NCBI GenBank assembly: GCA_900319225.1
Contig: ONNV01000003.1
Location: forward strand, 124,001 to 188,000
Length of the DNA stretch: 64,000 bases
Direction: 5' to 3'
From: an uncultured Prevotellaceae bacterium
Lineage (GTDB): Bacteria > Bacteroidota > Bacteroidia > Bacteroidales > Bacteroidaceae
Made by a program: the position numbers and the translations under genes. Below are positions 11,425 to 52,539 of this stretch, one piece after another. The first letter of the stretch is position 1. The number at the start of each line of letters is the position of its first letter. The notes beneath the pieces are model-generated. The model was not told the DNA's origin. It saw nothing but the letters and a program-made list of their open reading frames with translations, and did no database searches.

Positions 11425-11607
11425 AAAACGCAGATATTAACGCAGGTGCATTACGCAGGTGCAATAGTATCGGAGCGAGCGAATGCCTGGAGCGAGACCG
11501 CGGACCCGGAGGGCCGCCAGAGTGACCGAAGGGAACGGATTTGCGTAGCAAATTAAAAAAAGGACGAAGGGCGGTTTACCGCCCTGGTTCGAATCCGCAA
11601 CGTCCAC
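11425..11607. other. Intergenic stretch with short hairpins and an inverted tRNA 3' fragment
   Basis: No gene is seen. It holds a small direct repeat (ACGCAGGTGCA twice near 11440-11463), then a GC-rich stretch with hairpin-forming pieces (GCGG-a-CCC / GGG-c-CCGC near 11500, GATTTGC / GCAAATT near 11540, AGGGCGG / CCGCCCT near 11567-11584). At 11586-11607 it ends in a plus-strand copy of a T-arm and acceptor that mirrors the 3' part of the tRNA-Val gene. Confidence 0.6.
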
Positions 11608-11643
11608 AAAAAAAGAGGTCCGCGAATGCGAACCTCTTTTTTT
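11608..11643 (-). terminator. tRNA-Val terminator (T-tracts on both strands)
   Basis: Seven A, GAGGT, a short loop region, ACCTC and seven T form a nearly symmetric hairpin directly downstream of the tRNA-Val gene. It can act in both directions. Its centre (11625.5) is also the centre of the larger tRNA quasi-palindrome. Confidence 0.85.
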
Positions 11644-11644
11644 G

Positions 11645-11719
11645 TGGGCGTTGACGGATTCGAACCGCCGACCCTCTGCTTGTAAGGCAGATGCTCTGAA
11701 CCAGCTGAGCTAAACGCCC
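11645..11719 (-). tRNA. tRNA-Val (anticodon TAC)
   Basis: The minus strand from 11719 gives a full cloverleaf. The acceptor is GGGCGTT / AACGCCC with discriminator A. The D-arm holds AGCTCAGCTGGTT, and the anticodon stem-loop is TCTGC-CTTACAA-GCAGA with TAC at 34-36, which reads GTA. The T-loop is GGTTCGAATCC. The CCA end is not encoded (CAA follows). Promoter upstream at 11741-11770, terminator immediately downstream. Confidence 0.95.
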
Positions 11720-11855: not shown

Positions 11856-12848
11856 ATGGAAACAGTTCTCAGCGGCATTCGCCCCACAGGAAATCTTCAC
11901 CTTGGTAACTATTACGGTGCAGTGACAAGCTTCATCAAGCTTCAGGATTTGTACAGATGCTTCTTCTTTATTGCAGACTGGCACTCCCTGACCACACACC
12001 CCACCCCTGAGAACATCCAGAACAGTGCCCGCACAATCCTGGCCGAGTACCTGGCATGCGGACTGGATCCTGAGAAGTCAACCATCTACGTTCAGAGTGA
12101 CGTACCTGAGGTTGTTGAGCTCTACCTTTATCTTAACATGAACGCATATCTGGGAGAGCTGGAGCGTGTAACATCATTCAAGGAGAAAGCCCGCAAGCAG
12201 CCTGACAACGTGAATGCAGGTCTGCTCACATACCCCACCCTTATGGCATCGGACATCATTATCCATAAGGCCAACAAGGTGCCCGTCGGTAAGGACCAGG
12301 AGCAGAACATGGAGATGGCACGTAAGTTTGCACGCCGATTCAACCAGATGTACGGTGTTGAGTTCTTCCCCGAGCCCGCATCATTCTCACTGGCCAAGGA
12401 GGGTGGCATAAAGATCCCCGGACTGGACGGATCGGGCAAGATGGGTAAGAGCGAGGGCAACTGCATCTACCTGTGTGACGAGCCCTCAGTTATCCGCAAG
12501 AAGGTGATGAAGGCAGTGACCGATGCAGGCCCACAGGCTATGAACAGCGAGAAGCCTGAGGTTATCCAGAACCTCTTTACTCTGCTTGAGGTGGTATCAT
12601 CAAAGGATACATACAACTATTTCAACGATAAGTGGAATGACTGCACTCTGCGTTACGGAGACCTTAAGAAGCAGCTGGCCGAGGATATCGTGGCTGCTAC
12701 GGATCCTATCCGCGAGCGCATCAAGGAGTTCCAGAGCAACACACAGTTGCTGGACAGCATTGCTCGGGCTGGTGCTGAGAAGGCTCGGGAGAGCGCTTCA
12801 AAAACCCTTAGGGAGGTTAGGCAGATTATTGGATTTAGGGTGTACTAA
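11856..12848 (+). CDS. trpS: Tryptophan-tRNA ligase
   Basis: Class Ic aminoacyl-tRNA synthetase that charges tRNA-Trp. The HIGH motif is HLGN at residues 15-18 within GIRPTGNLHLGNYYGA, and the KMSKS loop is KMGKS at 195-199. The 330-residue length is normal for bacterial TrpRS. The Rossmann-fold segments FFIADWHSLTTHP and MASDIIIHKANKVPVGKDQ (tryptophan and ATP site) are present. The gene stands alone, convergent with mutL, and the structured intergenic element lies between the two stop codons. Confidence 0.97.
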   Translation: METVLSGIRPTGNLHLGNYYGAVTSFIKLQDLYRCFFFIADWHSLTTHPTPENIQNSARTILAEYLACGLDPEKSTIYVQSDVPEVVELYLYLNMNAYLGELERVTSFKEKARKQPDNVNAGLLTYPTLMASDIIIHKANKVPVGKDQEQNMEMARKFARRFNQMYGVEFFPEPASFSLAKEGGIKIPGLDGSGKMGKSEGNCIYLCDEPSVIRKKVMKAVTDAGPQAMNSEKPEVIQNLFTLLEVVSSKDTYNYFNDKWNDCTLRYGDLKKQLAEDIVAATDPIRERIKEFQSNTQLLDSIARAGAEKARESASKTLREVRQIIGFRVY

Positions 12849-12864
12849 GCCATGCGGCGGGAAC

Positions 12865-13135
12865 AGCTCGCGCCTTTGGCGCTCGGTTGTTTTTGACTTT
12901 TTGGGCCCGTAGGGCCTCAAAAGTCGCTAGCTGGAAACCTATCTGCGTATTAGAAACAACCTTTTTTTAGTTTGGGGCGGCGACGCCCCAAACCCGTTCC
13001 GCGGGACATGGTCCCGCTCCACTCTGCCGGCCTTCCAGGCCGGGTAAAACTAAGACCTCGCTAGCTTTGCTCGCGAGGCCTTAGTTTTACTGGGTGCAGC
13101 TGGAAACCTTGTTGGTGTGTGCAGCTGGAAACCTA
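12865..13135. repeat. Structured intergenic repeat element, copy A
   Basis: Fills the space between the convergent trpS and mutL genes. In order it holds a GCGCCTTTGGCGC hairpin; GACTTTT...AAAAGTC with an inner GGCCC/GGGCC; the unit GCTGGAAACCTATCTGCG; GTTTGGGGC / GCCCCAAAC; GCGGGAC / GTCCCGC; CCGGCC / GGCCGG; and a long GTAAAACTAAG...CTTAGTTTTAC stem. It ends with two copies of GCAGCTGGAAACC (13096-13108, 13121-13133). The last copy runs into the mutL stop codon. A second copy with the same order of hairpins lies at 51,928-52,276. No open reading frame in it looks real. Confidence 0.85.
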
Positions 13136-50848: not shown

Positions 50849-51914
50849 TGAATACAAAGGACTGGCCGTGAACAGCGGTGTAGTCAGCCCCGGCTCCATA
50901 AACCCTTACCTTAAGAGAAAAAGCCGCCCCACACTCTCCGTGCAGGATTATGTGGACGGTATCATAAAAGGTAATGTAACGGTGCTCAGTCAGGCCGTGA
51001 CTCTGGTTGAGAGCCTCAAGCCTGAGCATCAGGCCATAGCACAGGAAGTGATTGAGAAGTGCCTTCCCTACTCCGGCAATTCGGTCCGCATAGGCATAAG
51101 CGGTGTGCCCGGCGCCGGCAAGAGTACCAGCATCGATGCGTTCGGACTGCATGTGCTCAAGGATGGCGGCAAGCTGGCCGTACTGGCCATTGACCCCAGC
51201 TCAGAGCGCACCAAAGGCAGCATACTGGGTGACAAGACCCGTATGGAACGCCTGGCCGTTCACCCCAAGGCATTCATACGCCCCAGCCCGGCAGCAGGCT
51301 CACTGGGCGGCGTGGCCCGCAAGACCCGTGAGACCATTGTGCTGTGTGAGGCCGCCGGCTTTGACAAGATATTCGTTGAGACCGTAGGCGTTGGCCAGAG
51401 CGAGACCGCGGTCCACTCAATGGTAGATTTCTTCATGCTCATACAGCTGGCCGGAACCGGTGACGAGCTGCAGGGCATAAAACGCGGCATCATGGAGATG
51501 GCTGATGGCATAGTCATCAACAAGGCCGATGGAGACAACGCCCCCAAGGCCGAACTTGCCGCCAGCTCGTTCCGTAACGCGCTGCACCTCTTTCCGCCAT
51601 CGGAGAGCGGCTGGATACCGCAGGTAATCACCTACTCCGGATTCTACGAATATAAGATCAAGGAGGTGTGGGATATGGTTTGGGCCTATATTGATTTTGT
51701 AAAGAAGAACGGGTATTTCCAGTACAGGCGTAATGAGCAGGCCAAGTACTGGATGTATGAGAGCATCAATGAGGCCCTTAAGAACGGATTTTATAATAAT
51801 CCGGAGATTGCGGATAGGCTGGGTGAGTTTGAGAAGGCGGTTTTGTGTGGGGAGGTTAGCTCGTTTGGGGCGGCTCGGCAGCTGCTGGATATTTACCGTT
51901 CGGGAAGGGGGTGA
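50826..51914 (+). CDS. meaB: MeaB-type GTPase, methylmalonyl-CoA mutase chaperone
   Basis: G3E-family GTPase that loads and protects the B12 cofactor of methylmalonyl-CoA mutase. The P-loop is GVPGAGKSTSID, and Walker B-like DPSSERTKGSILGDKTRM and ETVGVGQSE are the MeaB/ArgK hallmarks; the NKADGD motif gives guanine specificity. The 362-residue length is normal. No mutase gene lies in the window, although meaB is often next to mutA and mutB, so the mutase must be elsewhere. The start overlaps the flippase-like gene by 23 nt, suggesting coupled translation. Confidence 0.93.
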   Translation: MEHPENSDEYKGLAVNSGVVSPGSINPYLKRKSRPTLSVQDYVDGIIKGNVTVLSQAVTLVESLKPEHQAIAQEVIEKCLPYSGNSVRIGISGVPGAGKSTSIDAFGLHVLKDGGKLAVLAIDPSSERTKGSILGDKTRMERLAVHPKAFIRPSPAAGSLGGVARKTRETIVLCEAAGFDKIFVETVGVGQSETAVHSMVDFFMLIQLAGTGDELQGIKRGIMEMADGIVINKADGDNAPKAELAASSFRNALHLFPPSESGWIPQVITYSGFYEYKIKEVWDMVWAYIDFVKKNGYFQYRRNEQAKYWMYESINEALKNGFYNNPEIADRLGEFEKAVLCGEVSSFGAARQLLDIYRSGRG

Positions 51915-51927
51915 TATTTCCATCCGG

Positions 51928-52276
51928 CGGATTGCTCGCGCCTTCGGCGCTCGGTAGTTTTTGACTTTTATGGCCCAAAGGGCCTAAAAAGTCGTTAGCT
52001 GGAGACCTATCTGCGTATTAGGAACAACCTTTTTTTAGTTTGGGGCGGCGACGCCCCAAACCCGCTACGCGGTATTCCATTTTATTCCATACCGCTCCGC
52101 TCTGCCGGCCTTCCAGGCCGGGTAAAACGAAATCCCGACAACGCTTTGCTGTCGGGATTCCGTTTTACTGGGTGCAGCTGGAAACCTTTTTATACCTTGA
52201 GGGGTGCAGCTGGAAACCTTTTTATACCTTGAAAAGGTGCAGTTGGAAACCGTGCTGGTGTGTGCAGCTGGAAACC
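51928..52276. repeat. Structured intergenic repeat element, copy B
   Basis: Same order of hairpins as copy A: GCGCCTTCGGCGC; GACTTTT...AAAAGTC with GGCCC/GGGCC; a GCTGGAGACCTATCTGCG unit; the identical GTTTGGGGC / GCCCCAAAC hairpin; GCGGTAT / ATACCGC (copy A has GCGGGAC / GTCCCGC); an identical CCGGCC / GGCCGG hairpin; and GTAAAACGA...AATCCCGACA / TGTCGGGATT...CGTTTTAC. It ends with four GCAGCTGGAAACC-type units (52174, 52206, 52239 with one change, 52264). It lies between the convergent meaB and tRNA-Gln genes and contains no plausible gene. Confidence 0.85.
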
Positions 52277-52320
52277 TATCTGCGAATTAGGGACACGCAC
52301 GGGGAAACGTATTTATGTTT

Positions 52321-52367: not shown

Positions 52368-52392
52368 GAGATTGTATTTTTAAAGGAATCCT

Positions 52393-52420
52393 CCTGCCTT
52401 TCCTGGTTCGAGTCCGGGTA
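52393..52420 (+). repeat. Inverted partial copy of the tRNA-Gln 3' half
   Basis: Twenty-eight bases on the plus strand are identical to the tRNA-Gln sequence from the anticodon-stem 3' side through the T-arm (minus strand 52475-52502). The match weakens in the acceptor part. It has no 5' half and cannot be a working tRNA. Confidence 0.85.
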
Positions 52421-52429
52421 AGCTAGGCA

Positions 52430-52463
52430 TAAAAAGAAAGAGAGGCGCGTTAACGTCTCTCTT
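52430..52463 (-). terminator. tRNA-Gln terminator
   Basis: On the minus strand AGAGAGACG pairs with CGCCTCTCT (one G-T pair) around a 6-nt loop, then CTTTCTTTTT. It sits between the tRNA gene and its inverted copy, close to the centre of symmetry. Confidence 0.8.
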
Positions 52464-52465
52464 AG

Positions 52466-52539
52466 TGGCTGGGCTACCCGGACTCGAACCAGGAAAGGCA
52501 GGACCAGAATCTGCAGTGTTACCATTACACCATAGCCCA
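52466..52539 (-). tRNA. tRNA-Gln (anticodon CTG), CCA encoded
   Basis: From 52539 on the minus strand: acceptor TGGGCTA / TAGCCCA, discriminator G and an encoded CCA. The D-arm is GTGT-AATGGTA-ACAC; the anticodon arm is GCAGA-TTCTGGT-CCTGC with CTG at 34-36; the T-arm is CCTGG-TTCGAGT-CCGGG. The closing pair of the anticodon stem (31-39) is A-C, a mismatch. The U1-A72-type acceptor is typical of tRNA-Gln. Promoter at 52561-52590. Confidence 0.93.

Follow-up and report, generated by a model that had tools for sequence, protein, structure and literature searches.

A Dispersed, Modular Hairpin Repeat at Gene Ends in One Genus of Rumen Bacteroidales

Results and Discussion

Two Copies of a Six-Hairpin Element

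The window analyzed here is a stretch of 64,000 nt from the 2.53 Mb genome of a rumen bacterium. It contains two copies, A and B, of a dispersed element of about 250 nt that lies between genes and encodes none itself. When both copies were read and aligned, six hairpins (H1 to H6) were found in one shared order, as the first-pass annotation had claimed (Table 1). That annotation was also correct in reporting two identical or nearly identical hairpins (H3 and H4, identical in A and B), two that keep their pairing with changed sequence (H5 and H6), and an end motif, GCAGCTGGAAACC, present twice in A and four times in B, one of the latter with a mismatch. The extent of copy A has to be redrawn to the whole interval given in Table 1. 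Copy B begins directly after a TGA stop (51912-51914), and its hairpins span 51935-52168. Several alleles of the linker occur among copies, and H4 elsewhere in the family has the form GTTTCC..GGAAAC.

Table 1. Features of copies A and B in window coordinates.
Feature	Position	Strand	Remarks
Copy A, whole element	12849-13133	- (assumed sense)	bounded by two stop codons: TAA of the plus-strand gene, 12846-12848 (left edge); CTA of the minus-strand gene, 13133-13135 (right edge)
Copy A, H1	12867-12885	-	top variable; base CGAGC/GCGAG conserved
Copy A, H2	12895-12925	-	GACTTTT..AAAAGTC hairpin
Copy A, linker	12926-12969	-	contains CTGGAAACC motif; T7 at 12962-12968
Copy A, H4	12970-12993	-	GTTTGGGGC..GCCCCAAAC hairpin
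Copy A, H5 with outer pairs	12996-13022	-	hairpin 13001-13017; outer pairs 12996-12997/13021-13022
Copy A, H3	13027-13043	-	CCGGCC..GGCCGG, nearly invariant
Copy A, H6	13044-13090	-	hypervariable; base GTAAAAC/GTTTTAC
Copy A, GCAGCTGGAAACC x2	13096-13108, 13121-13133	+	sequence read
Copy B, whole element	51915-52300	-	right end approximate
Copy B, H1	51935-51953	-	alignment to copy A
Copy B, H2	51963-51993	-	alignment to copy A
Copy B, H4	52038-52061	-	alignment to copy A
Copy B, H5	52069-52095	-	alignment to copy A
Copy B, H3	52105-52121	-	alignment to copy A
Copy B, H6	52122-52168	-	paired top unlike that of copy A
Copy B, GCAGCTGGAAACC x4	52174-52276 (starts 52174, 52206, 52239, 52264)	+	sequence read; one mismatch at 52239-52251

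Fold and Covariation

Folding of copy A gave z scores of -7.9 for the minus strand, -7.7 for the plus strand and -9.6 as DNA (200 shuffles each), and copy B scored -6.3 (100 shuffles); no shuffle folded as well as either copy. RNAalifold predicted 60 pairs from 24 own-genome copies, 18 of them with two-sided changes. A broader alignment, A3, comprises 85 of 107 context entries and represents 84 distinct copies, truncated or interrupted ones being omitted. The interrupted copies L017 and L031 each count twice among the 107, and L041-L047 and L049-L059 were omitted as repeats, with one distinct copy among them (L053, from G026). With the structure drawn from copy A and H5 excluded, 96.6% of 4103 paired cells in A3 are paired, compared with 86.1% after shuffling; double-change cells number 378 versus 96 in shuffles, and the covariation score is 0.247 versus 0.075 in shuffles and at most 0.059 in slid registers. 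None of 500 shuffles, and no slid register, reaches the pairing or covariation of the 84 distinct copies; the shuffles carry no correction for relatedness, and the slid registers do correct for it, but a structure drawn from copy A has an edge over them. The compensatory change first noticed between A and B thus extends well above shuffles to the further copies: H1-H4 and H6 keep their pairing while the sequence changes, and because these changes are compensatory we conclude that the structure is kept.

H6 has 64 distinct tops among the 81 that are readable. Its own arms are Watson-Crick partners at 750 of 810 positions, compared with 54.8% when each arm is matched with that of another copy, and the same test separates own from swapped arms in H1 (73.7% versus 25.4%). 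Little was gained for H2 (57.4% own versus 52.3% swapped, with a pattern misregistered for some alleles) and nothing for H5 (22.0% versus 23.4%). Only H6 and H1 were used from this test, because H5 has non-pairing GGAAT-type alleles and H2 is misregistered. Among the 31 own-genome copies the H5 region forms a hairpin in 12, is a GGAAT-type stretch in 17 and is neither in 2. Immediately outside H5, the pair is T-A in 54 of the 65 pattern-matching rows (of 85) and C-G in the other 11, without exception, and all 11 C-G rows come from the own genome. In the fold of copy A the linker also pairs with the sequence that follows H2, but by eye this failed in other copies and was discarded.

Read on the minus strand, H6 tops hold 35 G-U versus 11 A-C combinations (22 versus 10 among distinct tops, p 0.05), and the whole structure holds 65 versus 38. 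This bias mildly favors folding in minus-strand RNA or in a single strand, without being decisive. The commonest H6 loops are C-AAAGC-G (22), C-GAA-G (21) and C-AAA-G (19), the last two of which also lead in H1 and H2. GNA loops are stable in single-stranded DNA, and the loops do not decide between RNA and DNA. No promoter-like site was found in copies A and B with a sigma-70 consensus, which does not cover Bacteroidetes.

Family Size and Taxonomic Spread

The sharing between A and B holds, but the element is not the two-copy feature that it first appeared to be. When the assembly that contains the window was searched by DNA, 65 rows were returned, which group into 41 places, and a covariance model of H6 and H3 finds about 43 distinct places in the own genome among the matches listed (59 raw matches less opposite-strand echoes, which were removed by eye). 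Within the genus, this model matches 14 of 37 genomes, the own one included (13 of 36 other species), with one weak match each in G002 and G004; matches per genome range from 0 (23 of 37) up to about 43. The DNA search gave matches in 16 of 61 genomes, own included; the other 15 are all among the 36 of the genus, and those in G006, G017, G020 and G029 are partial only. Outside the genus, an order-wide model search with stricter filters than those used within the genus returned one weak match in each of 2 of 392 sampled genomes (38.5 and 35.7 bits), taken as chance. The exact core pattern occurs in named records in 13 metagenome-assembly stretches titled Bacteroidales (RUG isolates, which we take to be rumen genomes) or Bacteroidaceae, the latter from buffalo and yak reticulum. 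Phages and plasmids gave no blastn match at E 1e-5, and one exact pattern had 0 occurrences in viral contigs. The search for further copies in this genome and in related Bacteroidales therefore yields a family that is limited to the genus and patchy within it.

Gene Context and the Terminator Question

Gene context was taken from open-reading-frame calls rather than annotation, with orthologous copies counted per species. Family-wide, 63 of 96 junctions that carry the element are convergent and 3 of 96 are divergent, compared with 6 convergent among the 53 junctions of the window, that of copy A included (Fisher p 6e-11). At least one flanking gene ends toward the element in 93 of 96 cases; with the element read in the minus-strand sense, the upstream gene points toward it in 91 of 103. 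In 58 of 70 cases the downstream convergent gene has its stop codon 0-40 nt away from the element, and in 40 of these 70 the distance is 11-20 nt. Upstream stops fall within 40 nt in 43 of 86 cases and beyond 150 nt in 21 of 86.

The first-pass annotation had offered a bidirectional terminator module as one possibility. T-tailed hairpins do exceed expectation, being present in 17 (sense) and 9 (antisense) of 57 convergent-junction elements and in 0 of 285 mononucleotide shuffles, but most of the 24 junctions made almost only of element lack one in a given direction (found in 7 sense and 4 antisense). On the latter counts, a canonical two-way terminator, with a GC hairpin and T-run both ways, is weakly supported at best. 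A consensus terminator scan found none in copy B and two in copy A, versus 1.2 in shuffles. Element-free stretches at two loci carry a T-tailed hairpin in 6 of 8 cases each way (L196 among them faces another gene). The element thus occupies a position where relatives frequently have a terminator, mostly without being a canonical terminator itself; at 3' ends its hairpins may serve as a barrier or as a stabilizer, or it may have no host role.

The Same Junctions With and Without the Element

At the copy A locus, inspection by eye of 420 nt at the trpS 3' ends of 20 other genomes of the genus revealed the element in none. The same convergent gene faces trpS in seven of them (L121, L123, L124, L125, L130, L135, and L139), and most other trpS loci have a different next gene. 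Among the element-free junctions, the stops overlap in L130, L123 has about 53 nt with a terminator-like hairpin, and L121, L124 and L125 have another hairpin in about 120-130 nt. G025, which lies outside the set of 20, does have the element at its orthologous junction, where the top of H6 is a different one (L089). At the L028 locus the element is present in 4 of 18 loci and missing in 14; the stops are 5-6 nt apart in the element-free L202, L203, and L205, and L194 and L198 have another hairpin block. Among 20 loci corresponding to copy B, the element is whole in the own genome and partial in G015 (L185). The contrast between filled and element-free junctions means that the element has been gained or lost between intact genes. 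Comparison of the two by eye revealed no target duplication; the element ends are ragged, and the number of GGTTTCC motifs varies. Together, the multi-copy repeat and the element-free junctions of relatives support the earlier suggestion of a non-autonomous mobile element.

Hairpin Exchange Between Copies

Copies at orthologous sites have an identity of 0.84 in the conserved part and 0.63 in H6 (48 comparisons that are not independent), compared with 0.77 (0.771) and 0.54 for non-orthologous copies between genomes. The 48 come from 81 orthologous-site rows, share copies among rows, and in a few cases rest on one flank; the 33 rows left out mostly have a partner outside A3 or a single matching flank, and include L079/L106 and L099/L106. 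Within H6 at these sites, 154 cells changed two-sided and 20 one-sided with pairing kept, and a further 29 changed cells, 12 of them two-sided and 17 one-sided, lack pairing in at least one copy. With 154 two-sided changes against 20 one-sided, these alignments favor the view that whole hairpins were replaced rather than changed stepwise. In this sample, pairing is 587 of 621 at species-shared sites versus 423 of 436 at sites seen once, and such near-equality is compatible both with selection at each site and with exchange that refreshes the copies.

All 31 own-genome copies examined are distinct combinations of five modules, among which no association was detected (714 of 1000 shuffles were at least as high). 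Of 40 own copies, 18 have an H6 top that is repeated exactly at another place in their genome, compared with 2 of 59 in the incompletely sampled relatives, and some tops also turn up at unrelated sites and in different species. The loop variant GGGGCGCCG is present in all 7 rows of G015 and in no other row of A3. Identity of the conserved part between paralogs averages 0.835, G000 supplying 465 of the 620 pairs. It is above the between-genome value of 0.771 in G000 (0.849), G015 (0.906), G025 (0.848), G021 (0.798) and G019 (0.794), about equal to it in G008 (0.777), and below it in G007 (0.759), G022 (0.738) and G026 (0.728). By this measure G000, G015 and G025 are clearly homogenized and G019 and G021 slightly so; G007, G008, G022 and G026 show no homogenization. 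Our interpretation is that copies exchange hairpin variants from a common pool.

Other repeats are nested inside some copies. In L032, L036, L083, L085 and L086, from several species, a palindromic module of 70-80 nt (CGCCACGATAAAG type) is inserted in the H5 region. In L017, L026, L031, L033 and L040 of the own genome, a hairpin block of GTTTCC..GGAAAC and GGAATGTC..GACATTCC replaces part of the linker.

Comparison With Known Elements

No Rfam family matched above its gathering score in the window, nor in copy A under lax settings, which agrees with the earlier failure to recognize a described family; the His_leader and mir-991 scores of copy A are far below the gathering scores and were taken as chance. 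Searches of the literature by words, not by sequence, found no title or abstract start naming the element.

The closest parallels are in behavior. The BOX, RUP and SPRITE elements of Streptococcus pneumoniae are reported to be small dispersed repeats of strong secondary structure, modular in the case of BOX, that are almost confined to one species group, are enriched between convergent genes and have many insertions common to genomes; the authors of that study judge them parasitic (PMC3049150). The family described here is likewise dispersed, modular, structured, lineage-limited and biased toward convergent genes, and is thus a BOX-type interspersed repeat in kind. It differs from BOX in its compensated hairpin swaps, free reassortment of modules and frequent abutment on stop codons, and the likeness drawn here is one of behavior. 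REP and BIME sequences are described as palindromes that lie between genes, chiefly convergent or co-directional ones, and in some cases near stop codons (PMC3733652, PMC12306157), features that our often convergent, palindromic intergenic element has in common with them. However, REP/RAYT palindromes are given there as 20-40 bp with a GTAG or CGTC end (PMC3733652), whereas the element is about 250 nt long with up to six different hairpins. The family is best filed as BOX/REP-type in behavior.

The element does not flank a Y1_Tnp (RAYT) gene: the sole Y1 match, L048 (assembly 84.7% complete), has GGGGACGGTTC-type palindromes. Mobilization by a RAYT was rejected as a necessity, given six element-bearing relatives without a Y1 match (G007, G008, G009, G019, G026 and G033), whose assemblies are incomplete (78-97%); a REP transposase seems unnecessary. 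The GGGGACGGTTC-type palindromes lie around the Y1 gene of L048 (1021-1110 and 1950-2040) and also beside several elements, and are possibly the REP/TIR family of that Y1 transposase. The element resembles a MITE in being non-autonomous, dispersed, structured and without a gene, but terminal inverted repeats and a target duplication were not recognized by eye, and its ends are ragged. In its place between convergent genes and the A-run/T-run base of H6 it resembles a bidirectional intrinsic terminator, a likeness that breaks down at the element-only junctions described above.

Origin and Possible Role

With moderate confidence, we regard the element as a non-autonomous, modular repeat that is dispersed between genes in one rumen Bacteroidales genus and forms a sequence family of its own, whose copies would spread by rare insertion and hairpin exchange. 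On this model the folded element would rarely insert at gene ends through a putative trans-acting enzyme, and copies could then trade whole hairpins, using the conserved sequence that flanks each one for recombination or gene conversion. The fold might be kept because it is needed for spread, or because it provides the flanking genes with a 3'-UTR structure, perhaps mainly on the minus strand of the window, and thereby a tolerable transcript end. We lean toward an element that is chiefly selfish, with a structure that is tolerated at transcript 3' ends and may also be of use there. Several results count against this explanation: no mobilizing enzyme was found; homogenization is uneven; the ends are ragged with no target duplication seen; identical tops recur far less in the incompletely sampled relatives than in the own genome; and pairing is nearly as good at shared sites as elsewhere, which would be superfluous in an element that is purely selfish and decaying.

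This maintained pairing would be expected if the element were a domesticated 3'-end module, a string of hairpins that ends or protects the transcripts of facing genes and is selected at each junction, whether as a read-through barrier, an exonuclease stop or through a ribosome effect near the stop codon. We regard this as possible but doubtful. The position at stop codons between convergent genes, the presence of the element where some relatives have a terminator-like hairpin and the excess of T-tailed hairpins over shuffles point toward it, and there is a precedent in REP sequences, which reportedly stall ribosomes when within 15 nt of a stop codon (PMC12306157). However, few element-only junctions have a T-tailed hairpin, the consensus scan gave none in B and two in A against 1.2 in shuffles, and the element is patchy, being missing at 14 of 18 L028 loci and in all seven relatives with the trpS gene pair. 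Template switching in replication, in which one arm is copied from the other so that palindromes are corrected, pairing is mutational and stems drift, would also produce an excess of two-sided changes at orthologous sites, and it remains a rival for the many tops that are unique in the relatives sampled. We find it improbable: symmetric correction would not give the G-U excess on one strand of H6, certain tops are found again at unrelated sites and in different species, and the outer H5 pair is T-A or C-G in 65 of 65 rows, with the 11 C-G rows all from the own genome. Covariation, the near-invariant H3 and the long conserved unpaired linkers would suit a trans-acting structured non-coding RNA expressed from many loci, but matches that vary from none to about 43 within one genus, a flanking gene that almost always ends toward the element and the failure of the sigma-70 consensus, within its coverage, to find a promoter-like site make such a role very unlikely.

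A bolder version of the exchange model is that in this genus a dedicated process both moves and swaps folded hairpin cassettes among the scattered elements, with template exchange guided by structure and not by sequence; this we think unlikely. If it were true, facing gene ends would carry freely recombined hairpin strings that are structurally equivalent and distinct in sequence. Stepwise compensation should leave one-sided intermediates, which are few at species-shared sites though the paired stems differ widely, and the family is in this respect a natural experiment on wholesale stem change. It also carries a caution for covariation tests, as module exchange among repeats can yield strong covariation, and offers a system for asking how convergent transcripts end where a repeat replaces a terminator.

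Neighboring Repeats and tRNA Duplications

Beside tRNA-Val, window positions 11450-11566 hold a second hairpin repeat family with 22 own-genome matches, fragments included; by eye, it has in common with copy A the order CAGAGTG..GGAACGG, TTTGC hairpin, TAAAAAAAGG. At 11586-11666 the 3' part of tRNA-Val is present as an inverted duplication around a terminator hairpin, and at 52392-52503 the same arrangement involves the 3' part of tRNA-Gln; a hairpin element adjoins each. The inverted tRNA-Gln 3' part is also found in the relative L172 and apparently in L185, where the displayed stretch ends before the gene. These inverted duplications look like products of snap-back copying at the terminator. 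In L007, 35-216 nt upstream of the element, an exact direct repeat of 37 bp brackets another hairpin element; by eye it is part of a tRNA 3' end, like an integration duplicate.
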